Assembly (NCBI RefSeq): GCF_029625215.1
Contig: NZ_CP121197.1
Location: 3,038,001 to 3,102,000, forward strand
Source of the DNA: Aurantibacillus circumpalustris
GTDB lineage: Bacteria > Bacteroidota > Bacteroidia > B-17B0 > Aurantibacillaceae
DNA: 64,000 nt
Direction: 5' to 3'
Part shown: positions 22,845 through 58,724 of the stretch, in pieces
Layout of the letters: each line of letters begins with the position of its first letter
Numbering within the stretch: the first letter of the stretch is position 1
Made by a program: the position numbers and the translations under genes
The notes under the pieces: generated by a model
Told to the model about the DNA's origin: nothing
The model's database searches: none
What the model saw: the letters and a program-made list of their open reading frames with translations, nothing else

Positions 22845-23069
22845 TCATTTCTCAAGAGTAAAGTAATCTTCTACACTAATTAAGCATGTTTCCAAAGAAC
22901 CTGAAATTGCATCCAGAATTTTCTTGATGAATATTTCCTGTGACTCATTCACACTGTAATTAATTTTTGATATAAAATTGTATCCTTTGTTTTTGCAACC
23001 GTCCACACCATTCTCGTTATACTCAGCAACAGCATCTTCTCCATGTAAAAAGTAAAATGTTTGTTTCAT
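22845..23069 (-). CDS. Small protein of the 29-bp-element regulon
   Basis: A 74-residue unrecognised protein (start MKQTFYFLHGEDAVAEYN). What makes it credible is its promoter region: a full copy of the 29-bp element ends exactly 5 bases before its ATG, the same geometry as four genes of the 37-39 kb array, 14 kb away. No membrane segment or Cys pair. It is isolated, with plus-strand genes on both sides. Confidence 0.6.
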   Translation of the reverse strand: MKQTFYFLHGEDAVAEYNENGVDGCKNKGYNFISKINYSVNESQEIFIKKILDAISGSLETCLISVEDYFTLEK

Positions 23070-23074
23070 AACCT

Positions 23075-23103
23075 TATAGGGAATAAAGTAAAAAAAGAAT
23101 ATT
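23075..23103 (-). promoter_or_regulatory. 29-bp element, copy at 23.1 kb
   Basis: Reading toward the gene: AATATTCTTTTTT, variable middle, TTCCCTATA, then 5 bases, then ATG (23069). It is identical to the other copies at every fixed position. Confidence 0.85.
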
Positions 23104-34232: not shown

Positions 34233-34901
34233 TCAAATAATTTCAGCTCGTTTCGCTAGAAGCCATACTGAGTATGGTGTATGAGGTTTTCCTTGACTGC
34301 TAAAAAAACCATCAGCATTTAATTTATCTGCAATTTGTTTGTAGGTTATTTTTGCCTGAGCAATTAATAATTTAATAACAGCAGTCGCTCGCATATTATT
34401 CGGATTGCTACTTGCAGCTTCTTTTCTCACAGATGCCCCTTTCTGTCTAGCTTCCAGCGTGAGGTTTTTTGGATTACCTAATTTAGTTCCTCGTTGTTTT
34501 GCTACTTGCAAACTTTTCGAGGTACGTTCCGAAATTAATTTTGCTTCGTTTTCAGCAACTGCACTTAATATGTGAATGGTTAAAGGCGTTGCGAATGGGG
34601 CATCACAGGCGACGAAAGGTATTTTACTTTCCAGCAGTGTTGCAGTAAAGACTACATTTCTGGCCAATCGGTCTAACTTTGCGATCAACAACGTCGCACC
34701 AGTTTGTTTACACATCTCAATCGCTTTGTAAATTTCAACACGCTTCTTTTTCGAAGTGCCTGTTTCAACCTCGACGAACTCAGCAATTATTTCTCCATCT
34801 CTAGCATAACTTTGCACAGATTGTCTTTGTGCTTCAAGTCCAAGTCCGCTTTGTCCTTGTCTTGCCGTGGAACATCTTGTATATGCAACGTATTTTATCA
34901 T
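34233..34901 (-). CDS. Serine recombinase / resolvase
   Basis: A 222-residue serine recombinase of the resolvase/invertase class, which cuts and rejoins DNA through a phosphoserine link. It has the catalytic YTRCSTARQG segment with Ser11, the LLIAKLDRLARNV motif (about residues 70-82), and IHILSAVAENEAKLISERT (about 106-124) with the E-helix. A short C-terminal HTH-like region with IADKLNADGF follows (about 185-210). Length fits a small resolvase. It could invert or resolve DNA in this array. It is joined to the next gene by a 1-base gap. Confidence 0.9.
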   Translation of the reverse strand: MIKYVAYTRCSTARQGQSGLGLEAQRQSVQSYARDGEIIAEFVEVETGTSKKKRVEIYKAIEMCKQTGATLLIAKLDRLARNVVFTATLLESKIPFVACDAPFATPLTIHILSAVAENEAKLISERTSKSLQVAKQRGTKLGNPKNLTLEARQKGASVRKEAASSNPNNMRATAVIKLLIAQAKITYKQIADKLNADGFFSSQGKPHTPYSVWLLAKRAEII

Positions 34902-34979: not shown

Positions 34980-35504
34980 TTAGTAACTTTTTGGATAAAA
35001 ATAGAAGCGATAGCCAATTCCAGAATCAAAAACTCCTTTGAAATAACCAAACTTATTTTTTTTATTCGGGATGCCAATCTCTATCGTTAATTTTTTGCCT
35101 TTAATGTCGAAAACCAATTCATCTTCATGAATGTATTTCACTTCTAAAGAAAATTTCTTAATGATCTTTTCGATTGTAGAAAAATGAAATGTCTGATCAT
35201 ACAATCTCATAGCCAAAACTGTTTCACGAACAGTCTTGTAAGAAAAACAGTTCTTAAGACATAGGTCCACAATTGCATAGTTTGTCTGTCGTTGTAATTG
35301 TTTTTTGAAAACTTCGTAGACATAGATTGCAATACTTTTGTCGAGCTTTAACCTACGACCATATATTTTTTTTGAATCAGTAACTTCTAATAAATATTTA
35401 TCTCTAGTTCGGATAAGAGTCAAGAAGTAAGTTCTTCCATGATCATAGGTGAAAGCCACATCTTCCACTATTTTAAACTCAAATTCTTTGTTTTTAATTT
35501 CCAT
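34980..35504 (-). CDS. Unknown protein, member of the minus-strand array
   Basis: A 174-residue unrecognised protein (start MEIKNKEFEFKIVEDVAF). The ATG immediately follows the stop of the 35505-35810 gene, so translation is coupled and it lacks its own 29-bp element. It has an aromatic N-terminal beta-rich half that weakly resembles the 33740-34231 product and a charged C-terminal part ending YFYPKSY. No motif seen. Confidence 0.5.
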   Translation of the reverse strand: MEIKNKEFEFKIVEDVAFTYDHGRTYFLTLIRTRDKYLLEVTDSKKIYGRRLKLDKSIAIYVYEVFKKQLQRQTNYAIVDLCLKNCFSYKTVRETVLAMRLYDQTFHFSTIEKIIKKFSLEVKYIHEDELVFDIKGKKLTIEIGIPNKKNKFGYFKGVFDSGIGYRFYFYPKSY

Positions 35505-35810
35505 TTAGTCAAAATCAAGTTCTACCCATTGCATTTCATTTTGATAAGGATGCTCTGTAACCAAATATCCTAACCTATTTACTAAATGATACCCAGCTGA
35601 ATAACACATTGAGTTCCCATCACCTTCTAGGATAGTCCACACAAGCTTTGCCGTGTCGGGATTATTCGCTAAGGATAGAATATATTCCAGTTCGGGTCCA
35701 TAGGTTTCATACATCCAACCGTTAAAGGCTGCATTCTCACCACCAACAATATGATTTTGCTGCGGCTTGTAAACTTCCTCGAACTCTTCTTCTGTAATTC
35801 TGTTTTTCAT
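35505..35810 (-). CDS. Unknown acidic 101-residue protein, phage/plasmid-array type
   Basis: Acidic protein beginning MKNRITEEEFEEVYKP. The later segment (DTAKLVWTILEGDGNSMCYSAGYHLVNRLGYLVTEHP) resembles small conserved proteins in Bacteroidota mobile elements, from memory. A full 29-bp element ends 12 bases before its ATG. It is coupled to the next gene. Confidence 0.6.
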   Translation of the reverse strand: MKNRITEEEFEEVYKPQQNHIVGGENAAFNGWMYETYGPELEYILSLANNPDTAKLVWTILEGDGNSMCYSAGYHLVNRLGYLVTEHPYQNEMQWVELDFD

Positions 35811-35822
35811 ATTGCTTTATTC

Positions 35823-35851
35823 TATAGGGATGATTTTAAAAAAAGAATATT
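35823..35851 (-). promoter_or_regulatory. 29-bp element, copy 1
   Basis: Orientation toward the 35505-35810 gene. It has the fixed blocks ATATTCTTTTT and TCCCTATA; 12 bases separate it from the ATG. The middle is TTAAAATCA. Confidence 0.85.
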
Positions 35852-35966
35852 GAAAACGCTGTAGCTCTAGATAGTTCAATTTGCTCTTTTAATAAACAAA
35901 GCATTGATTACTTTACCTATTCATTTGTGATATAATTAGTTGGTAGATGAATATGCTTTTTTAGTA

Positions 35967-36914
35967 TTAAATGTTTATTAGCATATTCAAGGCTTGTGCA
36001 ACAACCTTGGCGGAAGAGCCATCTACAATGCTTTCGAATTTGGAAGATTGATCTTTATAAGATTTAACGTGATCGAAATAATGGGTGATCCCATTGTAAA
36101 ATCCAAAACATGTGCCTAAGATATGTTCTTGACCAATTCCAGTGAAGTAGCTTGTCATTACTGAGTCACGGATATTTTTGATACGTGTACTATCCTCTTT
36201 TTCAGAAACGAATAATTGGTCGATTAATTTTTTTACTTGAGTATCAGTAATTGTTTTTTTAGCCATGAGATTGAAACACTCATTCATCTCCTTTACATAT
36301 TGATTTGATATGCCTAAAAATTTGTGTGCTTGCTCAAGATTTGCTTGCACATTAGAGGTATGGCGGATAGAAACTTTGTTACTAGTTCCCTTAAGACAAG
36401 CATTTAATGTATTAGAACAAACAACTCGAATTGGCGACAAACAAGCTACAATGGAACCACTACCATCATGAGAAGATGTTAGTACGACATACATTTCTGT
36501 TAAATCATCGGTGCCAGCAATTCTGATATATTCAGGCATCTTCGCTGATATAAAAATTCTTTCGCCCTTCCCAAGCGAACCTGAAGTTTCAAAAATTGCT
36601 TGGCCAGAACCAACAATCGAATCAAAAAAACCAAAGGCATCTTGGTTCTGAACTACAGTATATCCTTTGCCTACAATTCCAAAAATATCGTTTGTGTCTT
36701 TACGCATAGTTGCAAACTTGTCAGCTACTGGTAACATCAGTCCTTCGACATTTGCATTTACAGGCACTTTTGAAACCTCATAATCAAGATTGGCCAATTT
36801 TATTGCTTGTTCACTGGTCATTGCATTTTCAACAATGGTTCCCAATCCATGCCACGCCTTTTGTGTCGAAGCAAAGCTTGTTTTTCCATTTCTTGTTTCT
36901 AAATTATGTGCCAT
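35967..36914 (-). CDS. DUF932 phage/plasmid-like protein
   Basis: A 315-residue DUF932 protein from the ATG at 36914 (MAHNLETRNGKTSFASTQKAWHGLG), the family's usual N-terminus. The open frame extends upstream to 36989, but that extension runs back through the 29-bp element and is not coding. Members are common on plasmids, phages and conjugative elements; their function is unsettled. The KGTSNKVSIRHTSN, VVQNQDAFGFFDSIVGSG and ERIFISAKMPEYI segments are typical. A 29-bp element lies 26 bases upstream of the ATG. Confidence 0.92.
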   Translation of the reverse strand: MAHNLETRNGKTSFASTQKAWHGLGTIVENAMTSEQAIKLANLDYEVSKVPVNANVEGLMLPVADKFATMRKDTNDIFGIVGKGYTVVQNQDAFGFFDSIVGSGQAIFETSGSLGKGERIFISAKMPEYIRIAGTDDLTEMYVVLTSSHDGSGSIVACLSPIRVVCSNTLNACLKGTSNKVSIRHTSNVQANLEQAHKFLGISNQYVKEMNECFNLMAKKTITDTQVKKLIDQLFVSEKEDSTRIKNIRDSVMTSYFTGIGQEHILGTCFGFYNGITHYFDHVKSYKDQSSKFESIVDGSSAKVVAQALNMLINI

Positions 36915-36940
36915 ATTTTTCGTTTGTTTAGTTTTGATCT

Positions 36941-36969
36941 TATAGGGATGGATTTGAAAAAAGAATATT
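36941..36969 (-). promoter_or_regulatory. 29-bp element, copy 2
   Basis: Identical in sequence to copy 3 over all 29 bases. It lies between the stop of the 36971-37261 gene and the DUF932 ATG, 26 bases upstream of that ATG. Confidence 0.88.
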
Positions 36970-36970
36970 T

Positions 36971-37261
36971 CTAAATCAGCAATTTGCACACTGGCATTCC
37001 GTCGTTGTCATTTGCATAACGAATAGGAAAACTTATGATAGAAGCATTTATTAGTACTCGCAAAACACCTTCGTTTTCAGAATAGTTTTTTATAATGACT
37101 TCATCTGCCCCAAGCGCCTCATCTGGAATATTAACCGTTGCAGTAAGAACAGGTTCTCCATTCTTCGCATTCACCAGCTCTATAGCTATTCTGTCATTTC
37201 TATACTTAAGTTTTTTTAAAATGCACTTGTATTGCTTAAATGTGATTTCATGTTTGTTCAT
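36971..37261 (-). CDS. Unknown 96-residue protein of mobile-element type
   Basis: A beta-rich 96-residue protein (start MNKHEITFKQYKCILKKLKY). The NIPDEALGADEVIIKNYSENEGVL stretch recalls small DUF4313-like proteins of Bacteroidota mobile elements, though I am unsure of the family. Its ATG is 5 bases after copy 3 of the 29-bp element, which favours leaderless translation. No SD-like sequence is present. Confidence 0.6.
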   Translation of the reverse strand: MNKHEITFKQYKCILKKLKYRNDRIAIELVNAKNGEPVLTATVNIPDEALGADEVIIKNYSENEGVLRVLINASIISFPIRYANDNDGMPVCKLLI

Positions 37262-37266
37262 GATGT

Positions 37267-37295
37267 TATAGGGATGGATTTGAAAAAAGAATATT
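37267..37295 (-). promoter_or_regulatory. 29-bp element, copy 3
   Basis: Identical to copy 2. Exactly 5 bases separate its last A from the ATG at 37261. It begins at the stop codon of the upstream gene. Confidence 0.88.
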
Positions 37296-37501
37296 TAACG
37301 CACCACTTCCAAATCACTAGGAATAACTGAGCCACGAAGAATAGGATTTGTATCCCATGCCTCCTGGGCTGATTCAAAGCCTAGTCTTTTATGAATGCCG
37401 TAAATTTGAGAGTAATACTCAAACTCTTCGAGTGAATCATAATTCTTTCTGAGGCGTGACTGCCATCCCTTAGCTCCACTCTTACATACAATCTTTTTCA
37501 T
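37295..37501 (-). CDS. Small basic 68-residue protein
   Basis: Start MKKIVCKSGAKGWQSRLRKNYDSLEEF; basic N-terminus and a helical aromatic C-terminus. It resembles small conserved proteins seen beside DUF932-type genes, but I cannot name the family. The 29-bp element (copy 4) ends 5 bases before the ATG. Confidence 0.6.
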   Translation of the reverse strand: MKKIVCKSGAKGWQSRLRKNYDSLEEFEYYSQIYGIHKRLGFESAQEAWDTNPILRGSVIPSDLEVVR

Positions 37502-37506
37502 AGTTG

Positions 37507-37535
37507 TATAGGGAAGATTTCAAAAAAAGAATATC
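37507..37535 (-). promoter_or_regulatory. 29-bp element, copy 4
   Basis: Same blocks as the other copies (first base G instead of A), 5 bases before the ATG at 37501. It starts right at the stop of the upstream lipoprotein-like gene. Confidence 0.87.
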
Positions 37536-38002
37536 TAGTAAAAAGGGTTTGGGTTGAGATTTGGCAAAATCAATTTACAGCTGTCGTTCTCAATAACAAC
37601 CTTTATTCTGATTAACCTCCTGGTTGCATCAATGTGCGCTCGTGTGTAAATTAATACAAACGTGTCTGCATTACTTGTAATGTTAGATAGCTTACCTAAT
37701 TCAAAGTCAAACTTCATTTTACTTTTGTAGTAGTTTAAAAGCTGAGTATGACCGAACTTGTGAACGGAACCTGAGGAACTAAATTTTATAAGATCCTCGC
37801 ACCTACCAAATCTATATAGACTCTGAAGGTAATGACCAAACGAACTACCATTAATTAGCGCAGGATTCAAATATGGTTTTGATTGAAAGTTTTCTTGTTT
37901 TGCTATGGGTACCGTATTATTTACAACTGGACTACCACATCGAAAAAGAATTCCGCAATGAAAAAGAAGTAGAAGCCGTTTCACCGTTTTTTTACTTTCC
38001 AT
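37535..38002 (-). CDS. Probable small lipoprotein
   Basis: A 155-residue protein from the ATG at 38002 (MESKKTVKRLLLLFHCGILFRCGSPV), a lipoprotein-like start with LFRC as candidate lipobox and Cys22 for lipidation. The open frame extends 9 codons further, but that longer start overlaps the previous gene without benefit. The mature part is unfamiliar, with IKVVIENDSCKLILPN near the C-terminus. It overlaps the end of the 37992-38240 gene by 11 bases, so it is coupled and has no 29-bp element of its own. Confidence 0.5.
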   Translation of the reverse strand: MESKKTVKRLLLLFHCGILFRCGSPVVNNTVPIAKQENFQSKPYLNPALINGSSFGHYLQSLYRFGRCEDLIKFSSSGSVHKFGHTQLLNYYKSKMKFDFELGKLSNITSNADTFVLIYTRAHIDATRRLIRIKVVIENDSCKLILPNLNPNPFY

Positions 38003-38240
38003 CCAAATATATTTCCGTGATACAGTCAATAAACTCCCAGTTTACACCAACATTTGCATCATGACTTCTTGCCATCATTAGCATTATTTCTTTGGCTTGT
38101 TTTTTGCTAATTTTTGGACGTTCTTGTTCTTCTGCTCTAGTGATAATATCTTCCAGAGCCCACAGCGAGTCAACGAAATACCCTGCTGCTCTTAATATTT
38201 GTTTAGATTCTTCGATTTTATTTAGATTGTTTTTAGCCAT
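37992..38240 (-). CDS. Small charged 82-residue protein
   Basis: Start MAKNNLNKIEESKQIL; helical and charged, with AKEIMLMMARSHDANVG near residue 50. It starts 13 bases after the preceding gene stops and overlaps the next start by 11 bases. No 29-bp element of its own, so it is probably read through from the gene at 38254-38595. Unknown function. Confidence 0.55.
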   Translation of the reverse strand: MAKNNLNKIEESKQILRAAGYFVDSLWALEDIITRAEEQERPKISKKQAKEIMLMMARSHDANVGVNWEFIDCITEIYLDGK

Positions 38241-38253
38241 ATTGTTTTCTGTT

Positions 38254-38595
38254 TTATTCTTCGATTAATATTTGATGAATGTATTTTTTTGCCTCTGGTG
38301 AAAGTTGCTCGATAGAAACTTCTTTGCCAAGCCATTCAGAATTTCCTTTTGCTTCCTTCAAATAATGGATTAGTTCCTGCTTTAGGATTTTCTTTTCATT
38401 GAAATGATTTCTCCAGCCGTATCCATAAGTTACATTCATTCGGTCTGTAACGTTCCCGCAGAATTGACCAAAACCACAGGGATGAAAGGGGTTCTCATTG
38501 AAGCCAACAATATCACCTGATGCAGAAATCACTCCAGTGTATCTATCGACAGTGTTTCCACCATTATCGAAAATTGTAATTTTTTTGTTTGCCAT
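38254..38595 (-). CDS. Unknown 113-residue phage/plasmid-array protein
   Basis: Start MANKKITIFDNGGNTVDRYTGVI; a Gly/Asn-rich beta-type N-terminus (GFNENPFHPCGFGQFCGNV) and a helical C-terminus. Similar small conserved proteins occur in phages and mobile elements, from memory; no function known. The 29-bp element (copy 5) ends 5 bases before the ATG. Confidence 0.65.
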   Translation of the reverse strand: MANKKITIFDNGGNTVDRYTGVISASGDIVGFNENPFHPCGFGQFCGNVTDRMNVTYGYGWRNHFNEKKILKQELIHYLKEAKGNSEWLGKEVSIEQLSPEAKKYIHQILIEE

Positions 38596-38600
38596 GTTTA

Positions 38601-38629
38601 TATAGGAATGGAATTGAAAAAAGAATATT
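38601..38629 (-). promoter_or_regulatory. 29-bp element, copy 5
   Basis: Fixed blocks AATATTCTTTTTT and TTCCTATA, 5 bases before the ATG at 38595. Confidence 0.87.
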
Positions 38630-38648
38630 CACTTAATTTGCATAGTCA

Positions 38649-38936
38649 CTATTTCTTATACAATAGCAATTCTAGTGCGCTCGGTGCGGTCTTTGAAAAT
38701 CCTAGTTTTGCCAATTCTTTGTTTGGATCTACTCCAACTACTTCCAGAAAATTAGAATAAGTGTACAAAAGTCCTCTAATATTCTCAACGAATCCATCTA
38801 ATTTGACTCCCATATAGGTGCTACTTATTTCATTGTAAACAAGGTGAAGCCTCACTGTTGAGTGTTTGCTGTAGTGAACCAAATACAGATAATCTTTCCC
38901 TCTTTTTATTTCAGAGTAATGTGGTTTAAATGACAT
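38649..38936 (-). CDS. Unknown 95-residue protein, first gene of the array
   Basis: Start MSFKPHYSEIKRGKDYLYLVHYSKHS at 38936. The frame is open further upstream, but that stretch is the 29-bp element itself and is not coding. The protein is beta-rich with a helical C-terminus. The 29-bp element (copy 6) ends 5 bases before the ATG, and this gene is the most upstream of the array, so that copy could be the main promoter. Confidence 0.6.
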   Translation of the reverse strand: MSFKPHYSEIKRGKDYLYLVHYSKHSTVRLHLVYNEISSTYMGVKLDGFVENIRGLLYTYSNFLEVVGVDPNKELAKLGFSKTAPSALELLLYKK

Positions 38937-38941
38937 GTCTT

Positions 38942-38970
38942 TATAGGGAGGAAAATGAAAAAAGAATATT
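38942..38970 (-). promoter_or_regulatory. 29-bp element, copy 6
   Basis: Most upstream copy of the array, 5 bases before the ATG at 38936. Blocks AATATTCTTTTTT and CTCCCTATA. Confidence 0.87.
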
Positions 38971-39063: not shown

Positions 39064-39837
39064 ATGCCTTTTATCAAAAACACTAAAAACCGATTGTACT
39101 ATTATTGCGAGTTTAAAACCGCTAGAGATCTTATATTACCATCTTTTAGGCTTCTAGTAAATGAGATTATTAGAACCAATGACCCTAGAGAAAACATGAA
39201 TTTCGTTTTCGAAACAGTTTCAAAAAAAAGTCGACACCTTGAGAATCAGAAACGAATTATCAAGGTGAATAGAATGCTCAAAAGAAATTGTAAAGCGCTG
39301 TGTTTTTCGCAAGATTACCGAGGTAAATGGGGTTGTGCTTCTTCTGCTATGTGGGCACACTACGGTGGAAATCATACTGGTGTTTGTTTGGAATTGGATA
39401 AAGAAGAATTCGAGAGGGAAAATCCAAATATTGATTGGAAGTATTTTAGAAAAATAAAATATGTAGAATATAAGATACCTCATAGGCAGGTTGGTGAACA
39501 AAGAAACCCTTTTGATCACAAGAAGATTGACTTTATTAGGGCTAACAAAATTGGCTTAAAAAACTATGTTCTCAATGAATTCAAGCTTGAGAATTTAAAC
39601 TATTTCTACTTTACTAAGAATAAAGAATGGCAGTATGAACGAGAAACCAGATTAGTCATTTTCGGTGACCAGAAAAAGAAGGTCTATTGTTGTATAAAGA
39701 ATAGTTTAAAAAACATACACTTAGGTGTTAAGTTCAACGACAAACACTTGCCCAGTCTTAAAGCGCTGGTAAACGGGGTAAATATTAACAAAATGAAATA
39801 CGGAGACATTTCGCTTTACAGCGAGGAACTCGCATAA
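39064..39837 (+). CDS. DUF2971 domain-containing protein
   Basis: A 257-residue DUF2971 protein. The diagnostic block is ALCFSQDYRGKWGCASSAMWAHYGGNHTGVCLELDKEEF (about residues 78-118), with C-F-S, MWAHYG and GVCLEL. A second block, EWQYERETRLVI (about 201-213), lies nearer the C-terminus. DUF2971 proteins are common in defence islands and beside nuclease genes; their activity is unknown to me. It lies 57 bases before a nuclease gene in the same direction, suggesting a two-gene system. No membrane segments. Confidence 0.88.
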   Translation: MPFIKNTKNRLYYYCEFKTARDLILPSFRLLVNEIIRTNDPRENMNFVFETVSKKSRHLENQKRIIKVNRMLKRNCKALCFSQDYRGKWGCASSAMWAHYGGNHTGVCLELDKEEFERENPNIDWKYFRKIKYVEYKIPHRQVGEQRNPFDHKKIDFIRANKIGLKNYVLNEFKLENLNYFYFTKNKEWQYERETRLVIFGDQKKKVYCCIKNSLKNIHLGVKFNDKHLPSLKALVNGVNINKMKYGDISLYSEELA

Positions 39838-42152: not shown

Positions 42153-42181
42153 AATATTCTTTTTCTAAACCACTCCCTATA
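42153..42181 (+). promoter_or_regulatory. 29-bp element, copy at 42.2 kb (plus strand)
   Basis: The only plus-strand full copy, directed at the TM0106-like gene. Fixed blocks AATATTCTTTTT and CTCCCTATA. Here 65 bases separate it from the ATG, and a TATCTTTA -7-like box at about 42228 lies between. Confidence 0.85.
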
Positions 42182-42246: not shown

Positions 42247-43791
42247 ATGAGAATAACGCCTAGCTTACTCTTTAATTATCTTCAATGTCCACATAAGCCT
42301 TGGAGGGATATCTATGGTCCTATCCCCGAAAAAGGAACCGATGACAACCCATTTCTTCAAATGTTATGGGACAGAGGTGTATTTCATGAAAAAGAAATTA
42401 TTGAAAACTTTGCAGAGGAGATTGAAGACATTAGTCAAGGGACAATTCAAGAGCGTTTAATTCGCACAAAAGTAGCTCTCATTGCCAAAAAGAAATACAT
42501 CTATCAAGGTGTAATAGAGCATGGTGAATTGTTTGGTATTCCTGACCTTTTGGAATTACAGGATGATGACCAGTATTTTCCTATTGACATAAAATCTGGG
42601 AGTGGCCTTGAAGGTGAAGATGACAATGCAGGGACTGAAGGCAAACAAAAAAAACATTATGCTGTTCAACTGTGTGTTTACAGCGATATTTTGATTCGTC
42701 TGGGATTCTCTCGTGAACGAAAAGGATTTATTATTGGTGGTGATAAGACAAAAGTGGAATACGATCTTGATGCTTCTATTGGTGTAAAATCACCTCAGAG
42801 CTTTTGGTCATTTTATGAAGAGATTAAAAAAACAGTTTTAGAATTGATTCAGGATAATACTCGTAACTCTCCCGCCATGAGCTCTGTATGCAAGATGTGT
42901 GCATGGCATGACAGCTGCAAAAAGTATTGCGTAGCGAATGACGACATGACACAACTTTTTTATGTTGGACGAAAAGTGCGTGACATCTTAAATGATGAAT
43001 TAGATGTTGCAACTGTGACTGGTCTAGTGAATTTGGATTTGCCAGTAATACTTGAAAGGAAGAAAAATGAAAAGCAGTTCTTAAAAGGTGTTGGTGAGAA
43101 GACATTAACTACAGCTGTGCGAAGAGCTAAGATTTTTAAAGACAAAGCTCTCCCTGTCTTGTATGAAAAACTCTATTTACCAGAGGTGAAATTCGAAATA
43201 CACTTCGATATCGAAGACGATCCGTTGCAGGAAGGATTTACTTACTTACACGGTCTTTATATTCGTACACCAGAAGGTGAAGAGTTCAAATCTTTTGTAG
43301 CCAAAGAATTTTCAGCTGAAGCTGAGCGAACTGCATGGAAAGGCTTTTGGGATTACATCCAAACTCTCCCTGAGAATGATTTCGCCATTTACTATTATTC
43401 GCAACATGAAAAAACGATGTACAAAAAGCTTCAGCAGAAATATCCAGAGGTGATTTCAGTTGAAAATCTGGAGGCATTTTTTAATAACCCAAATGTTATT
43501 GATTTGTATCACATAGTATCGAAATATACTGACTGGCCTCTGGGCTCATATAGCATTAAGGCTCTTGCAAAGTATTTAGGATTTAAATGGGAAGATGCAG
43601 ATGGAAACGGTGCAACCAGCATTCAATGGTATAATGAGTATTTAACTAGTGGCGACGAATCAATACTTCAAAAGATTCTCACTTACAATAAAAACGATTG
43701 CCAAGCGACAATGGTACTTAGAAATAAACTAACTGAATTGAATTTGAGATTTGGGTGCCCACTATTGGTGAGTCTCACTTTTTCTTCTTAG
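42247..43791 (+). CDS. TM0106-type RecB-like nuclease
   Basis: A 514-residue protein of the TIGR03491/TM0106 group. The N-terminal ITPSLLFNYLQCPHKPW and a PD-(D/E)XK core (YFPIDIKSGSG, about residues 115-125, followed by KKHYAVQLCVYSDIL) form a RecB-like nuclease. A Cys cluster (SSVCKMCAWHDSCKKYC) lies near residue 218, suited to an Fe-S or zinc site. A C-terminal DEDD-type RNase H-like exonuclease follows, with FEIHFDIEDDP (about 317) and YNKNDCQATMVL (about 475). The 3' end overlaps the convergent DUF4917 gene by 17 bases. Confidence 0.88.
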   Translation: MRITPSLLFNYLQCPHKPWRDIYGPIPEKGTDDNPFLQMLWDRGVFHEKEIIENFAEEIEDISQGTIQERLIRTKVALIAKKKYIYQGVIEHGELFGIPDLLELQDDDQYFPIDIKSGSGLEGEDDNAGTEGKQKKHYAVQLCVYSDILIRLGFSRERKGFIIGGDKTKVEYDLDASIGVKSPQSFWSFYEEIKKTVLELIQDNTRNSPAMSSVCKMCAWHDSCKKYCVANDDMTQLFYVGRKVRDILNDELDVATVTGLVNLDLPVILERKKNEKQFLKGVGEKTLTTAVRRAKIFKDKALPVLYEKLYLPEVKFEIHFDIEDDPLQEGFTYLHGLYIRTPEGEEFKSFVAKEFSAEAERTAWKGFWDYIQTLPENDFAIYYYSQHEKTMYKKLQQKYPEVISVENLEAFFNNPNVIDLYHIVSKYTDWPLGSYSIKALAKYLGFKWEDADGNGATSIQWYNEYLTSGDESILQKILTYNKNDCQATMVLRNKLTELNLRFGCPLLVSLTFSS

Positions 43792-44920
43792 GCTTTTTTA
43801 CTGCACCTATTACATCATGTATTAAATTAACCCCCCGAAATTCAAAACAAGTTTCAGGTATTTCTTTTAAAAGCTTTAAAGATTTTTTGACAAGCAACTT
43901 GAAATTTTTCTGTGATAATTCATCCGTTTTAAAGTCAACAATAAGCAAGCCGTTTTGATAATCTACAACAGCTGATATCCATCTCTTAATTAAATCGTTT
44001 ATATGCTCATCTCTAAAACTATATCCAACAATATAGAATTTCGTGAACTTGGCATATGTTGAAATATCTTTAAGATTTCGATAATAGAACTCGAATGGAT
44101 ACTCAGTAACCTTAAGTGATTTGCCACCACCAGTAATTATCGCTGGGTACAAGGTCCACTTTTCATCCTCAATTTTTTTATAAATACCATTTGTAAGAAT
44201 GTCGTCATTTTTGAATTTAATGGTTTTGTTTCGTGAATGGTCATAGAATAAAGATAGCGATCCGTGTAAATGATGCAGCTCAACTTTCTCTTTATTGTAA
44301 TCTTCTCCAAACTTTTCATCATTCATTGCTGGGTCAAAATCATATTTAGAAATATCAGATCCCTTAAAATGTCCAGAAGGCGAACAAAAATCAGTTATTC
44401 TCTCTGTGCCAATTTCTTCCAATAATATTGCTTCAGCTAACAAATCGTAATTTAAAGTGAAAATGAATCCCTTTTCACATTCATTTAATTGCGATTTCAA
44501 AAATGTAGTGAAGCCATTAAGTTTCTCAGCTATACCAGCCTTTGTTACATTCCCTTGTATTAGAGAAAGTATTTGAAAAATGTACTTGTCGTAAAGCGAT
44601 TTTATAACCTCTTCATGCTGTTTGAGATTTGGATTAGTTAGGTGAAATTTATTTAAAAAGAATACACCTGTTTCACTTTCAATAAAAGTTCTGTATTTAA
44701 CTAAGCTACTATATGCTGCTTCTAATTGGGCAAAGTTTGATTCGAAATCTTCGAAATTTAAATTCTCTTTTCCACAGAGTTCATGAAAAAAAGCTCTTTC
44801 ATCTCCTTGTAAACCTTTTATGAATTTTTCTGTAATATTCCTTAACGCAAATTCATGAGAAAGGGCTATAGATAAGCCGTTTCCAAAAAGAAAAAGTGGT
44901 CTGGATACAATTTCTGACAT
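43775..44920 (-). CDS. DUF4917 / SIR2-like protein, end of the type I RM operon
   Basis: A 381-residue protein with a Rossmann-type start FLFGNGLSIAL (Gly-Asn-Gly, residues 11-21), FIFTLNYDLLAEAI (about 153), LHHLHGSLSLFYD (about 221), ITGGGKS (about 253) and KFYIVGYSFRDEHINDLI (about 295). This is the DUF4917 pattern, related to the AbiH/SIR2-like NAD+-binding families that act in antiphage defence. It is the last gene of the seven-gene minus operon, 29 bases after the metalloprotease gene. It could deplete NAD+ or hydrolyse nucleotides; no catalysis is proven. Confidence 0.8.
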   Translation of the reverse strand: MSEIVSRPLFLFGNGLSIALSHEFALRNITEKFIKGLQGDERAFFHELCGKENLNFEDFESNFAQLEAAYSSLVKYRTFIESETGVFFLNKFHLTNPNLKQHEEVIKSLYDKYIFQILSLIQGNVTKAGIAEKLNGFTTFLKSQLNECEKGFIFTLNYDLLAEAILLEEIGTERITDFCSPSGHFKGSDISKYDFDPAMNDEKFGEDYNKEKVELHHLHGSLSLFYDHSRNKTIKFKNDDILTNGIYKKIEDEKWTLYPAIITGGGKSLKVTEYPFEFYYRNLKDISTYAKFTKFYIVGYSFRDEHINDLIKRWISAVVDYQNGLLIVDFKTDELSQKNFKLLVKKSLKLLKEIPETCFEFRGVNLIHDVIGAVKKPKKKK

Positions 44921-45667: not shown

Positions 45668-48600
45668 TTAATATTCCTTTTGATTTGAAATTAAATCAAA
45701 TATTTTGCTGATAATGGCTTTATCCGTTATGCCGTATTTTTCTAAAACTTCTTTAATTGCCAATTCAACTTTTCTTCGCTTAATGTGTGTACTTCTCCAA
45801 TCATCATCCTTGATATAGCGTACTTGTTCATCCATTGCAATGGACAATTCTTCGTCCTCCCCTAAGTTGTCATACAAGGCTTGTTTGGGTTTGGTGTCAA
45901 TATCTTTTGGATAAGACTTCATTGTATTAGGCTGAATGTCTTTGGCTAATTCCTCATATTTTTTGAGTAGTTCTTCGTAAGTTATTGCACCTTCTTTTCT
46001 CAATCGGATTAACTCCAAAAGCAATACGCTCATTTTTTCATAATAGGCAGGATTAACAGGCATTTCCTGAATAATCGTTTTCCGCATATTATTTTCAATT
46101 GTTTCACTCATTGCCGCTCTGTTTCCTTTGATGCTACCAGGCAATTTATCAGTGGCTTCTTCAATTCCATTTTCAACAATAAGTTGAAGCAATGTTGCTT
46201 CACCCAAATTGGAAAGCACACGGCTAGGGTCGGCAGTAAGATACATATCCAACATCTGACGCATATCGGGTTCATATTTCTTTAAGTCGATATAGTCAGA
46301 ACTGTAATGCTTGATGCTGTTTCTCAATTCAGCATAGTAATTTACTTTCTCTTTTATTTTGTCGGCTTCAGCTTGTGTATAACCTGCGTCAATTATTTCA
46401 GCAGCTATGTTGTTGTAAGCTCTGATTAACGCCACCACCAATTTGTATAAAGTGAATCGCTTTTCTTCGTTGTCTTTCAGGTCGTCTTTGTTTGTTGGGT
46501 CGCCACAGAAATAATGATAAAACTTTTCGATTTGTTTAGGTGCTGGAATGTCTAAACACAATTGATGCAATGCTTCAATGGCATCTTCTAAGCGTTCTTT
46601 TGCTTTTACCAATCTGTCAGTCAGCAATCCTTTTACATCTTCGGCATCAAAAGCATCAAAGGCATCTGAAGTATAATCAGTAATTGATTTATTGAGATTG
46701 TCTAACAGGTTTTTATAGTCAATAATATACCCAAATTCTTTGTAATAAGGGTCATTTTCTTCTTCTTTTCCTAATCTGTTAGTGCGGCAAATGGCTTGAA
46801 ACAATCCGTGGTCTTGCATTTGCTTATCTATGTACAAATAGGTGCAATGGATAGCATCAAAACCAGTCAGTAATTTTTCAACTACAATAAGCAGTTGCAT
46901 ATTTGCAGGCTCCTCTTTGAATTTCTTTTTGGCAAATTTTTCAAAACTCTCTGCATCAGTATAACCATAGTCTTTGAGCATCTTTTGGTAAATTTCAAAC
47001 TGCTCTTTTTTCTCAGTTTCTCCGTTGCCTGTTTCTTCTATTTTTATGGTGTTTTCGTTCGGTTCAAAACTGGTTATGATACCGCATTTCTTTAACCCAA
47101 AGTTTTGAAATATCTCGTAATAGCGACAAGCCTCATAAATACTTCTTGCCACAAGTATTGCATTTCCTCTGCCGTCTTTTAGTCGTGGTTTGGTAATGAA
47201 GTCTTTTTTGATGTCGAACACTATTTTCTCCAATCGGCTTTTAGTGCTCAAAACCTTTTGCATTGTTCCCCATTTCTGTTTAAGTTCTGCTTTAGGTAGG
47301 TCATTCATTCCCTGTGTTACAATTTCAAACCAATCGTCAATTCCTTTTTGGTCCAAAACGTGTTGGTCCACATCACGGGCTTCGTAAAGCAAATCCAATA
47401 CAACTCCGTCTTTTACTGCTTCATCAAATTTGTAGGTGTGAATGTACCTACCGAAAACTTCCAAACTTTTCTTTTTATCCTTTTTAAGTAATGGAGTTCC
47501 TGTGAAACCAATAAAAATTGAACTTTCAGGCAAGATGCTTTTCATAGCCTTGTGCAAATCGCCACTTTGAGTTCGGTGACATTCATCTATAAAAACCACA
47601 AATTCGCCTTTAGGCTGAAAGTCTTTGGATTGTTTTAAGGCGGTTACAAATTCATCAGCTACATTTTCTTCTTTGCCTCCAAACTTGTGTACTAAACTAC
47701 ACACTAATCTGGGTGAAGTGTTATTCAAGACCGAAACCAAATCGGCTCCACTTTTGGTTCGCTTAATTGTTTCACCAACACCTAAAAACACACCTTCAAT
47801 TTGCTCGTCCAATTCGGTTCTGTCTGTTACAATGAGTAAACGGGCTTTAGAATTGTTTTCCAGAATCCATTTGGCTAACCATACCATTGTCAAACTCTTA
47901 CCGCTTCCCTGAGTATGCCAAATGATCCCACCTTCTTTTTTAGCAAGATATTTCTGAGCTTCCTTGATGCCGAAATACTGATTGGGGCGACAGAGTTTTT
48001 TTGTACCAAAATCAAATATTAAAAAATTGTGAATGATTTCTAGTAAGCGTTCTTTGCTGCAAAATTGAATGATGTGTTTATCCAAAACTATTTCATCTGG
48101 TCTGTAAACGTCGTTGTCTTCTTTCCATTTCAGAAAATATTTTTCCTCTGTTTTGGTTGTGCCGTAATACAAGCCATTGCTATCGTTCCCTGCCATTACG
48201 AATTGAATGGTGGTGAAAAATGGCTTGTTGAATAAATGCAATTGGTTACTGATGTTTTGGCGAATACCTTCACTAGCAGAAACGCTGGCTTTTTTTAGTT
48301 CTAAAACACCAATAGCAATGCCGTTGATATAAAGTACAATGTCAGGCCTACGTTCTTTTGCTCCTTTGATGGTTACTTCTTCAGCAATGGCGAAATGGTT
48401 GTTATGTGGATTCTCCCAATCAATAAAATCAACATGTTCGGGGCGTTTAATGGCTTCAACCTTTTTTGAGGTGCCGAAACGAAGCATAGAATACACTTCT
48501 TTATTGGCGGTGTAAAGGTCATCATTGGTATTGATGTTGGCTTCTTTCTTTAGAGCAAAGGTGGCTTTGGTAATAAGCTCATCGCTGTATTTTGTTTGCA

Positions 48601-48745
48601 GAAATTTACGCAACTCAGCTTCTTCAATATTGCTGTTGCCTTCTCGTTCTTCCCAATTACCCAAATAGGTGTACTGCAATTGTTCCTGAAACAACCGCAA
48701 AATGCGGTTTTGGGTGGCTCGTTCTATTTGTCCGACTTTGCTCAT
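45668..48745 (-). CDS. hsdR: Type I restriction endonuclease subunit R
   Basis: HsdR (1025 residues) is the translocating and cutting subunit of the type I enzyme. It has an N-terminal PD-(D/E)XK nuclease with RRPDIVLYINGIAIGVLELKKAS (about residues 129-155), then an SF2 helicase with Walker A GSGKSLTMVWLA (about 291), DECH in VFIDECHRTQSG (about 401), FTGTPL (about 428), and motifs through QAICRTNRLG (about 660). A C-terminal helical domain contacts the methylase. It follows the DUF262 gene by 12 bases. All expected motifs are present. Confidence 0.96.
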   Translation of the reverse strand: MSKVGQIERATQNRILRLFQEQLQYTYLGNWEEREGNSNIEEAELRKFLQTKYSDELITKATFALKKEANINTNDDLYTANKEVYSMLRFGTSKKVEAIKRPEHVDFIDWENPHNNHFAIAEEVTIKGAKERRPDIVLYINGIAIGVLELKKASVSASEGIRQNISNQLHLFNKPFFTTIQFVMAGNDSNGLYYGTTKTEEKYFLKWKEDNDVYRPDEIVLDKHIIQFCSKERLLEIIHNFLIFDFGTKKLCRPNQYFGIKEAQKYLAKKEGGIIWHTQGSGKSLTMVWLAKWILENNSKARLLIVTDRTELDEQIEGVFLGVGETIKRTKSGADLVSVLNNTSPRLVCSLVHKFGGKEENVADEFVTALKQSKDFQPKGEFVVFIDECHRTQSGDLHKAMKSILPESSIFIGFTGTPLLKKDKKKSLEVFGRYIHTYKFDEAVKDGVVLDLLYEARDVDQHVLDQKGIDDWFEIVTQGMNDLPKAELKQKWGTMQKVLSTKSRLEKIVFDIKKDFITKPRLKDGRGNAILVARSIYEACRYYEIFQNFGLKKCGIITSFEPNENTIKIEETGNGETEKKEQFEIYQKMLKDYGYTDAESFEKFAKKKFKEEPANMQLLIVVEKLLTGFDAIHCTYLYIDKQMQDHGLFQAICRTNRLGKEEENDPYYKEFGYIIDYKNLLDNLNKSITDYTSDAFDAFDAEDVKGLLTDRLVKAKERLEDAIEALHQLCLDIPAPKQIEKFYHYFCGDPTNKDDLKDNEEKRFTLYKLVVALIRAYNNIAAEIIDAGYTQAEADKIKEKVNYYAELRNSIKHYSSDYIDLKKYEPDMRQMLDMYLTADPSRVLSNLGEATLLQLIVENGIEEATDKLPGSIKGNRAAMSETIENNMRKTIIQEMPVNPAYYEKMSVLLLELIRLRKEGAITYEELLKKYEELAKDIQPNTMKSYPKDIDTKPKQALYDNLGEDEELSIAMDEQVRYIKDDDWRSTHIKRRKVELAIKEVLEKYGITDKAIISKIFDLISNQKEY

Positions 48746-48757: not shown

Positions 48758-50731
48758 TTAAAAACCCCATATTTGTTTCAGCATCTCAAATGTTTCCTTT
48801 TGTCGAGTTTCCAACATTTCCAACGGAAAGACTCCGTCTTGATTCGGTTCAATCTTAGTGAAATTTATATGACTTGGGAGATGCTTTCTATCAATTGAAT
48901 CAATATGACCTACCAAAAGTTCGTTCCAAATTAAATTACTTGTTTTGTAGTCCTCTACTTTTAAAGAATAATAGTCATTATTGCTGCTAATGTTTTGTTT
49001 GTCCTTCAACAACAGCAACATGCCCAGTTTATTTCTAACTGTATTGAATTTCGATTCATCAAAGAAACCATCCTTATCTGTGAAGAGTTTTTTGTTTCGA
49101 TCATTATTCGCATAGATATGCTCTAGATGCATACCATACACTTTTTTATTATTCTTGTTAAACCGTTCTTCAAGATCAGTTAATGCATCTTTACAATACG
49201 ACGGCTTATCTAGTTTCTCTCCCAAGAATTTGTCTATTCTCATTAATGTATACTTGGTAAAATTGAGCCACCTATTGTGTATATTTTGAAATAATTCAGG
49301 TTTATACAAATCTCCGATAGTTGTGTATGCACCTTTTGTAATAATCTCTTCTTCTTCGAGATGTGCAATCAAGACATCATCAAATGCCTTGGCAATCTCA
49401 TTCAAAGATTTATTTCGAACCTTAGGCATTAACTTGTATACAAAATCCTGAAAACTATTACTATCGTAGAGATCTAGCAAACGTACTGTTGAATGCATTT
49501 GATCAAACTTTTTAGCAACTAAATTGATCTTTTCATTTGCCTGTTTGTCATTTAATTCAATTGCAGAAATAATTAATAAATACTGTTGGTTTTGATCAAG
49601 TAATTTATTGAATACTAGATATTCATTCTCATATGTTGTCCGAATCTTTAAATGCAGTTCAGCAAAGTATCTAAAGTCGTTGACGACCCAATTATATAGC
49701 TTTTTGGTGTCTTCAAAACGATTAAAAAAGCTCAGAATTGTTTGATTTTGGTAAATTTCATAGTGGTACTTATCTTCAAATTTCTTATAGTCATTTTCAG
49801 TTTCAGCGAATTTGGCTCTTAAGTATATTTTAAAAAAAGTGTCTAAATCAATTTCATTTTCGGTACTATTTTTAATGATGCTGTTGTAATATTTGTTCTG
49901 GAGTTCTACCCAAATTTCGTTAGCCTTTTCTTTCTCTTCATTGTATAGATTGCCGAGAAACTTTCCTTTTAGAATCTCATAAGGTTTTAATCCTAAACCA
50001 CGGTCATTCACAACTTCAAAGATGGTGGCAACATTCTCCTGCTGTTCAATATGAATTTCTACAATATTGAGTTTTTCTAAGATGTAATAGATATAGTAAG
50101 TAAGTTTTTTTACGTCAATAGTCAAGCCAGATTCCTCAGATTTAAAGAGACTATTAAAGTATGTGGATATGATAACATAGTTTTCCAAAATCTTTTTCTG
50201 CGTTTCGTCTTTGGCTTCATACTCAGTAATATTACCTAAGATATAATCAAACGCTCCTTGACGATTTGGATTATAAATTTTGTAGTATTCAGGCTTTGAA
50301 AAATCATCAGCTTCGAAAATTAGCTTTTCAAGTGTGCTAACGCTCACTGTCTTTACAGTATAGCTAGCGTTTTCATGGACTTCCGAAACTATACGTCGTA
50401 ATGCAATCAGCATTATTAAAAATGTAGTTAACCGTTGTTGACCATCCACAATAGAAATAAATGTTGTGGTTTTGCAGGTTAGGTAAGTATTAAGAAAGTA
50501 CGGCTTATAATTTTCAAGTACATCCTTTTTAATATTCTTGGGATCACTTACATTACGTTGACTCAAGTTGAATCTTAACTCGATATCTCTTAGCAAGGTT
50601 TCTACCTGACTCTTTTGCCACTTATAATCCCTTTGGTAGATGTCAATGTAATAACGCTCCTTTTCAGAAAAAACTCTGTTTATCGTAAGGGCATTTGGTG
50701 TGATCAAACTTTGTACAATTTCTCCAGCCAT
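48758..50731 (-). CDS. DUF262/DUF1524 (GmrSD-type) nuclease-like protein
   Basis: A 657-residue protein of the DUF262 group related to the type IV GmrSD system. The SIVDGQQRLTTFLIML motif (about residues 94-109) is the conserved NTP-binding ParB-like block, and DRGLGLKPYEILKG follows (about 243-256). Near the C-terminus GMHLEHIYANNDRNK and FNTVRNKLGMLLLL fit the DUF1524 His-Asn-His nuclease region. It lies inside a type I operon between HsdS and HsdR, with gaps of 1 and 12 bases. GmrSD homologues cut modified phage DNA; whether this one does is unknown. Confidence 0.87.
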   Translation of the reverse strand: MAGEIVQSLITPNALTINRVFSEKERYYIDIYQRDYKWQKSQVETLLRDIELRFNLSQRNVSDPKNIKKDVLENYKPYFLNTYLTCKTTTFISIVDGQQRLTTFLIMLIALRRIVSEVHENASYTVKTVSVSTLEKLIFEADDFSKPEYYKIYNPNRQGAFDYILGNITEYEAKDETQKKILENYVIISTYFNSLFKSEESGLTIDVKKLTYYIYYILEKLNIVEIHIEQQENVATIFEVVNDRGLGLKPYEILKGKFLGNLYNEEKEKANEIWVELQNKYYNSIIKNSTENEIDLDTFFKIYLRAKFAETENDYKKFEDKYHYEIYQNQTILSFFNRFEDTKKLYNWVVNDFRYFAELHLKIRTTYENEYLVFNKLLDQNQQYLLIISAIELNDKQANEKINLVAKKFDQMHSTVRLLDLYDSNSFQDFVYKLMPKVRNKSLNEIAKAFDDVLIAHLEEEEIITKGAYTTIGDLYKPELFQNIHNRWLNFTKYTLMRIDKFLGEKLDKPSYCKDALTDLEERFNKNNKKVYGMHLEHIYANNDRNKKLFTDKDGFFDESKFNTVRNKLGMLLLLKDKQNISSNNDYYSLKVEDYKTSNLIWNELLVGHIDSIDRKHLPSHINFTKIEPNQDGVFPLEMLETRQKETFEMLKQIWGF

Positions 50732-50732
50732 A

Positions 50733-51911
50733 TTATTTTAATCTTATTTTCCCTGTTAATAAATTCTGCAACATCCCTAATTTTACCTTTCTGTATTTCT
50801 CCAATTTGTTTTCTATGGCATTTATGTCAGCATCCATATCAGTCAAGCAATTGGCAACTTTTAGTTTTTCATGGAGTGAATCGTGAATTTTAATATTGAA
50901 ATTATTCAAACTTGATTTTTGAATATTGGGCAAGCCTGAACCAACTCGTAATTCCATTACCTGCGTTTGACGAAACTTTAAGTATTGATACAGGTATGCT
51001 TTAGGAAATTTAGTATCTATCAAGTCAACAGCATAACAGTGACCTCCCAGCCAAAATCTGTTTGTAGAATAGTTTACAAATCCGCAAGAATTTCCACCTT
51101 CACTTATTGTAATCGTATCTTTTTCCGTGTTCCATTTATCAGTGTAACCTGATGGTTCAATACCACCATTTAGTGCAGGGTAAGTTCCTTTGTCTGACAT
51201 ATCGGATTTGTTCAATTGTTCTCCTTTCCTAATAACAACAATTGTATCTAATCTTATTTCTTGAAGCTTACCTGTAGAAAACAGTTTTTGCATTACCCCT
51301 TGCTTGATGTTGCGTTTTTTGGCAATCAGTTTTTCTAAACTGTTTATCAAGTCATCGGCATCGGATAGGGCGTTGGCTATGGCGGCTTGTTCGTCAATGG
51401 TTGGTGGAAGTGGAACTTTAATGTTGCCAATCAATCCAGTGTTTAAGTTTGGTTGTCCATTTCCAGTTGCTACAACTTCCCTTAAATATTTGATTTGAGT
51501 ATTGATAAAATAGACCAAATACTGTTTGTTAGTTTCTTTGTCAAAGTCTAACAATGCTGCAATTCCGTCATTCGCACAACACTTTATTGCTAATAGCTTT
51601 GGTACACCTAAGGTCGCACCGCTGTTTGCAATTATCAGAGTTCCTTTTTCAAGTATTCTGCTGTGTAAAGAACCTTCCTCTGTTAAACAGCTTTCTGTTT
51701 CTAAAACATACATTTGAGATAACGGGATATTGGTCAAGGCTGCAACTGTTAGCCAAGGAATATAATTTCCATTAAAATATCTTGGGTCACCTGCTGGTCT
51801 GGGTGAGCCTCCTCTAACAGGATTGGAGATTTGCGAAATTGTTTTCACCTGCCAATCGCTCGGAATCAAACCCACTTCGGTTTGTTTATATTTTTCTGCT
51901 ACTAACTCCAT
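50733..51911 (-). CDS. hsdS: Type I restriction specificity subunit S
   Basis: HsdS (392 residues) determines the DNA sequence recognised. Two target-recognition domains (about 18-180 and 215-355) are each followed by a conserved helix (DADDLINSLEKLIAKKRNIKQG, and DADINAIENKLEKYRKVKLG before LLTGKIRL at the end). Its start overlaps the end of hsdM by 10 bases and the DUF262 gene starts 1 base after it. Recognition sequence cannot be read from the sequence. Confidence 0.94.
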   Translation of the reverse strand: MELVAEKYKQTEVGLIPSDWQVKTISQISNPVRGGSPRPAGDPRYFNGNYIPWLTVAALTNIPLSQMYVLETESCLTEEGSLHSRILEKGTLIIANSGATLGVPKLLAIKCCANDGIAALLDFDKETNKQYLVYFINTQIKYLREVVATGNGQPNLNTGLIGNIKVPLPPTIDEQAAIANALSDADDLINSLEKLIAKKRNIKQGVMQKLFSTGKLQEIRLDTIVVIRKGEQLNKSDMSDKGTYPALNGGIEPSGYTDKWNTEKDTITISEGGNSCGFVNYSTNRFWLGGHCYAVDLIDTKFPKAYLYQYLKFRQTQVMELRVGSGLPNIQKSSLNNFNIKIHDSLHEKLKVANCLTDMDADINAIENKLEKYRKVKLGMLQNLLTGKIRLK

Positions 51912-58373: not shown

Positions 58374-58724
58374 ATGAAAAAAATAGCAATATATGCCACG
58401 GATGGCACTAATAGCCTCATAGATTCAGAAACCAATAAAATAGCAATAATTGGTTTTCAATACATTGATGATAGTGAGCAGTTTTTACCAGAGAGTAAAG
58501 AGCGAAAGGTAAAAATGGTGGAATTGTTTTTTGATTCAAATTACTCAGACTATTGGTATTTCGGCGAGGACGAAAAATTATTGTTTAATTATATCTCAGA
58601 GCGCCGTAAAAGTTTTGAAAAGGAATTGTATAGGGAGGTTACAAAGGTTTCTGAGATAAGGTATCAAGTGTTTCTCAATCACATTACAAGTACATGGTCT
58701 GGAAAAAAATTAGGCTTCTTTTAA
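58374..58724 (+). CDS. Unknown 116-residue protein
   Basis: Start MKKIAIYATDGTNSLIDSETN; a beta-alpha-beta N-terminus and a charged helical C-terminus. No family recognised. It is divergent from the 57598-58245 gene and stands alone before a 950-base gap. Confidence 0.5.
   Translation: MKKIAIYATDGTNSLIDSETNKIAIIGFQYIDDSEQFLPESKERKVKMVELFFDSNYSDYWYFGEDEKLLFNYISERRKSFEKELYREVTKVSEIRYQVFLNHITSTWSGKKLGFF

Follow-up and report, generated by a model that had tools for sequence, protein, structure and literature searches.

A putative promoter motif private to one family of Bacteroidota mobile elements, as seen in Aurantibacillus circumpalustris

In a 64,000-nucleotide stretch of the Aurantibacillus circumpalustris genome (contig NZ_CP121197.1; hereafter, the window), eight genes are preceded by copies of a 28-bp motif consisting of a T-rich box and a CCTATA box. 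The exact string is private to this genome (G000) and is one variant of a motif present in nine other genomes of the class. The best explanation, which we consider probable, is that one family of Bacteroidota mobile elements has a promoter class of its own, for which we propose a role in an establishment programme. We infer transcription from the motif, its start site, the role of a small protein (FAM2) and the establishment programme from the sequences. In the proposed mechanism, the T-rich box (ATATTCTTTTTT here, TTCTTTTTTTT in most relatives) would lie at about −33 to −23 from +1 and the (A)CCTATA box at about −12 to −6, transcription would start on a conserved A, and the host RNA polymerase would act together with an element-encoded DNA-binding factor, which would bind either the T-rich box or the site in its entirety. 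Many of the short genes have a copy to themselves, and a start on the A of the ATG would give a leaderless mRNA.

All eight copies in the window are exact, with 7 on the minus strand and 1 on the plus strand (Table 1). When up to 3 mismatches are allowed, the window yields 8 matches, whereas 100 dinucleotide-preserving shuffles averaged 0.19 and never exceeded 1. Each of the 8 copies stands ahead of an open reading frame (ORF), the gaps from TATA to ATG being 5, 5, 5, 5, 5, 12, 26, and 65 bases. The original prediction, made from the window alone, had described a 29-bp element upstream of, and pointing at, eight genes; all eight copies are found exactly where it placed them, all eight point at an ORF, the additional 5′ base is A in 7 and G in 1 (the copy at 37507), and the copies at 36941 and 37267 are identical while preceding different genes. 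The 29-mer itself, exact in this genome, turned out to be merely the G000 variant of a wider motif.

Genome G000 (4,604,442 bases, one contig) carries 11 exact copies, 8 of them inside the window, and a control scan with the reversed pattern at up to 1 mismatch gave no match in this genome. Of the copies outside, two, with a degenerate third between them, are arranged in tandem ahead of an IS1595-type transposase ORF (L023:9919-10073), and one lies between a resolvase ORF and a 118-amino acid (aa) ORF (L024). At 3 mismatches, the same genome yields 31 matches versus 21 in the control, so that loose scans say little. The exact string has 0 copies in 39 congeners and in 86 other genomes of the family, and a one-mismatch match, one each, occurs in 8 of these 86 (2 of the 39 congeners). 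Exact-motif scans of 84,980 species genomes and of viral contigs, both of which may leave out records near the window's own genome, returned 50 and 13 stretches, respectively, with a single match each, which we read as background; the same holds for 11 stretches, one match each, returned when viral contigs were scanned for the commoner motif form described below. The motif differs between elements, and it was gene homologues that led to it.

Homologues of the 113-aa ORF behind copy 6 (FAM8) are present in 2 of the 86 other family genomes, G061 and G053, and directly upstream of them lies a commoner form of the motif, TTCTTTTTTT-N11-ACCTATA(A), next to which there are divergent copies. This form and that of G000, ATATTCTTTTT(T)-N-TYCCTATA, have the same 28-bp frame as far as TATA, and their T runs are in register. 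A whole-genome scan of G061 with the commoner form at 1 mismatch placed 15 of 17 matches in two clusters (contigs 7 and 16), with 2 matches in the control. A third variant, TTYCTTTTTTT-N9-RCCATATA, is found in G071; it was recognized by reading the sequence and scanned genome-wide only afterwards, giving 3 matches at the element, 2 one-mismatch matches elsewhere, and 0 in the control. Over all 17 regions scanned, with an exact tail required and no more than 2 mismatches tolerated in the T-rich part, 84 copies were found in 14 regions versus a mean of 0 to 0.10 and at most 1 in shuffles (20 per region); this count includes a lone copy on contig 8 of G061 and the three G000 copies outside the window, and for G071 it uses the fitted variant form. 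Among 395 genomes sampled from the class, loose matches occurred in 77, with more than 4 only in G000 (10), G106 (8), and G216 (11), the highest control count being 6 (G063). The expectation in the original prediction that related islands would carry copies is thus borne out. Divergent motif pairs were observed in G061 (contig 7), G053, G106, G216, G357, G071, and G487; in G061, the two T runs of such a pair are nearly palindromic about GAAATTC. Small membrane proteins of the FAM13 type are often encoded on the other side of divergent pairs.

The motif-bearing loci share a set of small proteins. In an all-against-all comparison of the ORFs of nine regions, families FAM1 (about 170 aa), FAM2 (about 80–90 aa), and FAM3 (about 115 aa) were found in the same six (the window, G053, G061 twice, G106, and G216), and the serine recombinase FAM0 in five of those six as well as at L024. 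Inspection by eye revealed FAM1, FAM2, and FAM3 together also in G357, G049, G070, G071, and G487, four of which have a serine recombinase, and showed FAM4 in G357 and G487 too. Each of the 11 FAM2 loci that bear the motif has 2 to 19 copies of it. A serine recombinase was seen at 9 of them (not in G053 or G357), and a motif copy of its own precedes its gene in several elements, namely those of G061, G216, G487, G070, and G071. Searches of Pfam, PHROG, and NCBIfam gave no name to the core families other than the recombinase, and FAM8 has 3 distant loci in viral contigs and only short partial matches in plasmids and phages. Membership of FAM3 in the window element is uncertain. The shortest element with the commoner motif, that of G070, is organized as FAM3-FAM12-FAM2-motif-FAM1-motif-recombinase; since this core holds few proteins, the factor reading the motif, if element-encoded, is one of them. 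No sigma factor was matched among the protein families of the G070 core, and from FAM3 to the recombinase there is no listed ORF longer than 220 aa, hence none of polymerase length. A promoter of a T7-like single-subunit phage polymerase was considered and, for an element-encoded polymerase, looks unlikely, as there is no polymerase-sized ORF in the G070 core, the part of that genome which the search covered.

The sequence behind the motif has features expected of a promoter. At position six after TATA, 73 of the 84 copies have an A; among copies whose gene starts elsewhere, this base is A in 54 of 65 and C in none. Measured to the first ATG opening an ORF of at least 45 aa, a definition which misses TTG and GTG starts, the start codon is at base 6 in 19 of the 84 copies, earlier in 0, at bases 7 to 10 in 4, at bases 11 to 19 in 36, and farther in 18, with 7 copies having none within 120 nt; when any ATG is counted, the numbers are 1 for bases 1 to 5, 19 for base 6, 7 for bases 7 to 10, and 44 for bases 11 to 19. 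Transcription starting on the conserved A would explain why the ATG lies at base 6 or several bases later but seldom between. We predict that transcription starts on the A six bases after TATA, the near end of the 6–8 bases that the original prediction had given for a supporting start, and that about a quarter of the genes behind the motif are leaderless. On these sequence features, the motif is likely a promoter. The boxes lie at about the same distances from the predicted start as those of Bacteroidota sigma-A promoters, including the −33 box, whereas the motif is much more strongly conserved and the standard −7 box of those promoters, TAnnTTTG, is found in only 3 of the 84 motif windows versus 261 of 5083 random windows, that is, no more commonly than by chance, consistent with the original remark that the motif does not resemble that promoter.

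Two fixed boxes around a variable middle would also suit a protein-binding site, so the 28-mer could be an operator only, bound by a repressor or a similar protein, with the true promoter being another sequence nearby; a small predicted winged helix-turn-helix (wHTH) protein has been proposed as a repressor of the early genes in an archaeal virus (PMC11065993). However, the standard −7 box is no commoner than chance in the vicinity, the conserved A and the ATG spacing suit a start just behind the motif, and the intergenic gaps at four window sites are only 33–56 bp, making an operator alone quite unlikely. That the copies lie close ahead of start codons could likewise reflect an RNA-level 5′ leader signal for translation or stability, with promoters further upstream, but the distance from TATA to ATG varies from 5 to 65, divergent pairs would make both strands of one short gap leaders, and the eight window copies with their flanks, folded as single strands with DNA parameters, behave about like shuffles (z −1.44 to 1.15), without a hairpin. 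Such a leader signal is very improbable. The folding result bears equally on an Frpo/ssi-like single-stranded-DNA promoter fired from the incoming strand, for which the use proposed on entry into a new cell (PMC11541004) would agree with an establishment role; as the copies also occur on both strands within one element, we regard this possibility as the most remote. Finally, the motif could be a recombination site at the boundaries of gene cassettes, each a site plus an ORF, used by the element's serine recombinase. The units follow closely on one another, head to tail, a serine recombinase stands at the cluster end in the window and in several relatives, and the identical copies at 36941 and 37267 precede different genes. 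Yet the motif has no symmetric core, divergent pairs and multi-gene units occur, and a boundary predicts neither an ATG exactly at the sixth base nor the conserved A there, leaving the cassette explanation with very little probability. Of the original prediction, a promoter or operator read by a mobile-element factor, the promoter-like character is supported by the fixed 28-bp frame, the orientation towards genes, the conserved A at the predicted start, and the ATG spacing.

The factor that would recognize the promoter may be FAM2, an 80–90-aa helix-turn-helix (HTH)-like protein acting as an activator or a repressor. Profile searches of FAM2 in overlapping sets of 395 class, 87 family, 36 G216-family, and 12 G357-order genomes revealed, down to E 1e-6, 12 loci distributed over 11 genomes, as well as two weak matches. 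Six of the loci (G000, two in G061, G053, G106, and G216) were known beforehand to carry the motif and stand outside the blind test; of the 6 not used in defining the motif, 5 carry it, with 2 copies in G357 (one already seen as a loose match in the 395-genome scan), 3 in G049, 3 in G070 (one 9 kb away), 19 in G487, and 3, of the third variant, in G071. At none of the 11 loci checked does the strand of FAM2 carry the motif in the 400 bp ahead of the gene; the pattern used misfits the G000 and G071 variants, for which the positions of the copies themselves show none. The nearest copy is roughly 280–1430 bp away. Searched against PDB, the FAM2 profile gave 14 weak matches, all to transcription regulators (PrfA, IclR type, and NtrC types; E 0.018–0.14), over stretches which we take to be the HTH parts of those regulators, and the FAM3 profile gave 7 mixed matches. 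Searches with FAM2 of G216 gave no match among plasmids, phages, or viral contigs. A single FAM2 gene was found in G000, where three motif loci share one variant, which is consistent with action in trans. Given the best hint of DNA binding among the candidates, we tentatively favor FAM2 as the recognizing factor, with slightly less than even confidence. As for the sigma factor, polymerase, or regulator proposed originally, the first two look unlikely if the factor is element-encoded, since the G070 core gave no sigma-factor match and has no ORF of polymerase length, and the small HTH-like protein is the best candidate; the proposed mobile-element specificity is supported, as the motif is specific to one element family and several genes of each element share it.

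The recognizing factor could instead be chromosomal, if the motif were the promoter of a host alternative sigma factor (e.g., of the extracytoplasmic function (ECF) type) adopted by mobile elements. The −33/−7 geometry suits the host holoenzyme, no sigma gene was recognized in the core of the shortest element, and ECF-like genes were seen by eye near the G070 and G071 elements, perhaps as host neighbours of a shared insertion place. However, sampled genomes without the element show background matches only. Furthermore, G070 and G071 belong to one genus and have different variants, that of G070 recurring in other families, so that variants go with elements and not with hosts. A host sigma factor is, in our view, an unlikely source of the motif. 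Host polymerase acting with an element-encoded factor would reconcile the geometry, which is that of the Bacteroidota holoenzyme, with the missing TAnnTTTG.

Several observations weigh against parts of this interpretation. FAM1 and FAM3 co-occur with the motif as well, so that co-occurrence alone cannot single out FAM2. The HTH assignment of FAM2 is borderline at the above E values, with only stray Pfam and PHROG matches; its single-sequence fold, with a predicted local distance difference test (pLDDT) score of 45.6, is too poor for structure comparison; and one of the 4 mixed PDB matches of the FAM1 profile is to a homeobox (E 0.12). The FAM2 stretch STNLFRIIKSL is the same in G071 (CCATATA) and in G053 (CCTATA) and therefore does not explain the motif variants. 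G129 has FAM2 and no motif copy, as is the case for the weakest FAM2 matches, in G343 and G365. A whole-genome scan of G053 with the commoner form at 1 mismatch gave 3 matches, all within 1.6 kb, and the control also gave 3. Seven of the 84 copies are without an ATG-start ORF of at least 45 aa in the following 120 nt, 2 of which precede a TTG-start transposase ORF. Among the ORFs searched, which are not all of those present, no relaxase or conjugation genes were recognized, and an ArdC gene was identified in the G487 element only, with none in the window cluster.

The genes behind the motif suggest what such promoters might serve. Many encode short proteins without a family among those searched. 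The DUF932 relatives in G216 and G053 likewise have a motif copy, and a similar gene to the nuclease behind copy 8 was seen by eye in G053, with a copy 44 nt before the ATG. In G487, 19 copies lie in about 7.6 kb (L212:4998-12576), nearly one per gene, and include copies before an ArdC gene (ArdcN, E 9.4e-27) and a DUF2958 gene. We read the gene content as an establishment or anti-defence module. The promoters would be kept silent while the element is resident and become active once it has entered a new cell, so that anti-restriction proteins and further small anti-defence proteins are made. The chances of such an establishment programme are about even, and those of a complete private establishment regulon in an undescribed element family, in which a tiny HTH protein and its own promoter class, often giving leaderless mRNAs, would fire up to ~19 separate small genes at once on entry, fall a little below that.

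Comparable arrangements are known. In conjugative plasmids of the p576 type (pLS20 family), EGeRS2 promoters are controlled by the Reg repressor (PMC8708921). The likeness lies in one regulatory sequence standing before several operons of one element (2 to 19 copies per locus here), in an ArdC antirestriction gene under the shared sequence, here in G487 only, and in the discovery from a conserved upstream sequence. By contrast, p576 belongs to Bacillus plasmids, and Reg is a ribbon-helix-helix repressor acting on TTATCCC dual motifs beside a strong promoter, whereas the motif described here is unlike TTATCCC, an HTH-like protein is the most that FAM2 can be called, and conjugation genes were not recognized. 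A ribbon-helix-helix repressor with its own regulated promoter is not what FAM2 looks like, as it has no credible Pfam match, weak PDB matches to other regulator types, and no motif ahead. In the archaeal virus SIRV2, early-gene promoters are accompanied by the predicted wHTH protein Aca8 (PMC11065993); there, near-identical promoters precede many small, mostly single genes thought to be anti-defence, the predicted regulator is small and of the winged-HTH type, and the sequence differs between viruses as the motif does between elements. SIRV2 differs in being a virus with an archaeal TATA/BRE promoter and in that the Aca8 gene carries the sequence, which the FAM2 gene does not. The motif system would, by analogy, work like the p576 regulon and the SIRV2 promoters without being a member of either.

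In the start map of Flavobacterium psychrophilum (PMC9723704), the boxes described are TAnnTTTG, its variant TAnnTTGY, and those of the sigma-54 and CGT types, and 5.5% of the mRNAs are leaderless; none of these box types resembles the motif, and the leaderless share predicted here is about a quarter. Frpo/ssi promoters of plasmid leading regions share with the motif the proposed anti-defence expression on entry (PMC11541004), whereas their duplex-mimicking hairpin was not found here and both strands are used. No description of a matching promoter element was found in the open-access literature, in line with the original prediction, which knew of no such element. Thus, the promoter class and the element family appear to be new, while one regulatory sequence common to separate genes of a mobile element is already known. 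If the promoter reading is right, the motif would provide a handle on small family-less genes, some of them likely directed against host defences, in a phylum in which the regulation of mobile elements is little known, and would represent a promoter class that departs from the TAnnTTTG rule and yields a marked proportion of leaderless mRNAs or very short leaders. It could then be used for finding anti-defence proteins that have escaped notice, the 19 copies of G487 being a source of candidates.

Table 1. Motif copies and genes of interest in the window, with transcription starts as predicted from the motif
Feature	Coordinates	Strand	Remarks
Motif copy 1	23075..23102	−	Predicted start 23069, the A of the ATG of ORF 22845-23069
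Motif copy 2	35823..35850	−	Predicted start 35817; TATA to ATG of ORF 35505-35810, 12 nt
Motif copy 3	36941..36968	−	Predicted start 36935; TATA to ATG of DUF932 gene, 26 nt
Motif copy 4	37267..37294	−	Predicted start 37261, the A of the ATG (leaderless)
Motif copy 5	37507..37534	−	Predicted start 37501, the A of the ATG (leaderless)
Motif copy 6	38601..38628	−	Predicted start 38595, the A of the ATG (leaderless)
Motif copy 7	38942..38969	−	Predicted start 38936, the A of the ATG (leaderless)
Motif copy 8	42154..42181	+	Predicted start 42187; ATG of the PDDEXK_1 / RNase_H_2 nuclease 65 nt downstream
74-aa ORF	22845..23069	−	Behind copy 1; no Pfam family
Serine recombinase (FAM0)	34233..34901	−	Pfam Resolvase, E 1.9e-21
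FAM1 protein	34980..35504	−	Relative at 11/11 FAM2 loci with the motif, recognized through clustering at 6 and by eye and alignment at the rest
101-aa ORF	35505..35810	−	Behind copy 2; no Pfam family; 5 plasmid records give weak matches
DUF932 protein	35967..36914	−	Behind copy 3
96-aa ORF	36971..37261	−	Behind copy 4; no Pfam family
68-aa ORF	37295..37501	−	Behind copy 5; no Pfam family; similar ORF in G061 element (by eye)
Lipoprotein-like ORF (FAM4)	37535..38029	−	In run behind copy 6; clustered in 5/9 regions
113-aa ORF (FAM8)	38254..38595	−	Behind copy 6; homologues in G061 and G053
95-aa ORF	38649..38936	−	Behind copy 7; no Pfam family
FAM2, 90 aa	41589..41861	−	Candidate regulator; beside cluster; single copy in genome; no motif ahead on its own strand
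RNase_H_2 / PDDEXK_1 nuclease	42247..43791	+	Behind copy 8
FAM3 protein	58374..58724	+	Near FAM2 in other elements, 16 kb off here

Copy 6 heads a run of three ORFs (38254, 37992, and 37535). Beside the motif cluster, the window encodes a SIR2-like defence candidate (43775-44920) and a DUF2971 protein matching the PDC-S31 defence candidate (39064-39837). Farther along are type I restriction-modification genes (R, 45668-48745; S, 50733-51911; M, 51902-54385), with a gene between them (48758-50731) that matches Orf5/HEC-06 defence models. Elsewhere in the same genome, L024:5218-12436 is an element-like stretch with a resolvase, one motif copy, a DNA methylase, and two tyrosine-recombinase-like ORFs (by eye), as well as a FAM11 protein common to G053 and G106. 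Very large proteins (about 2100 and 1600 aa) are encoded beside the clusters in G053 (C34) and G049 (C32), perhaps representing a defence system that travels with the element. In G216, L170:16801-17131 is an ORF of near-perfect protein repeats that is open on both strands.

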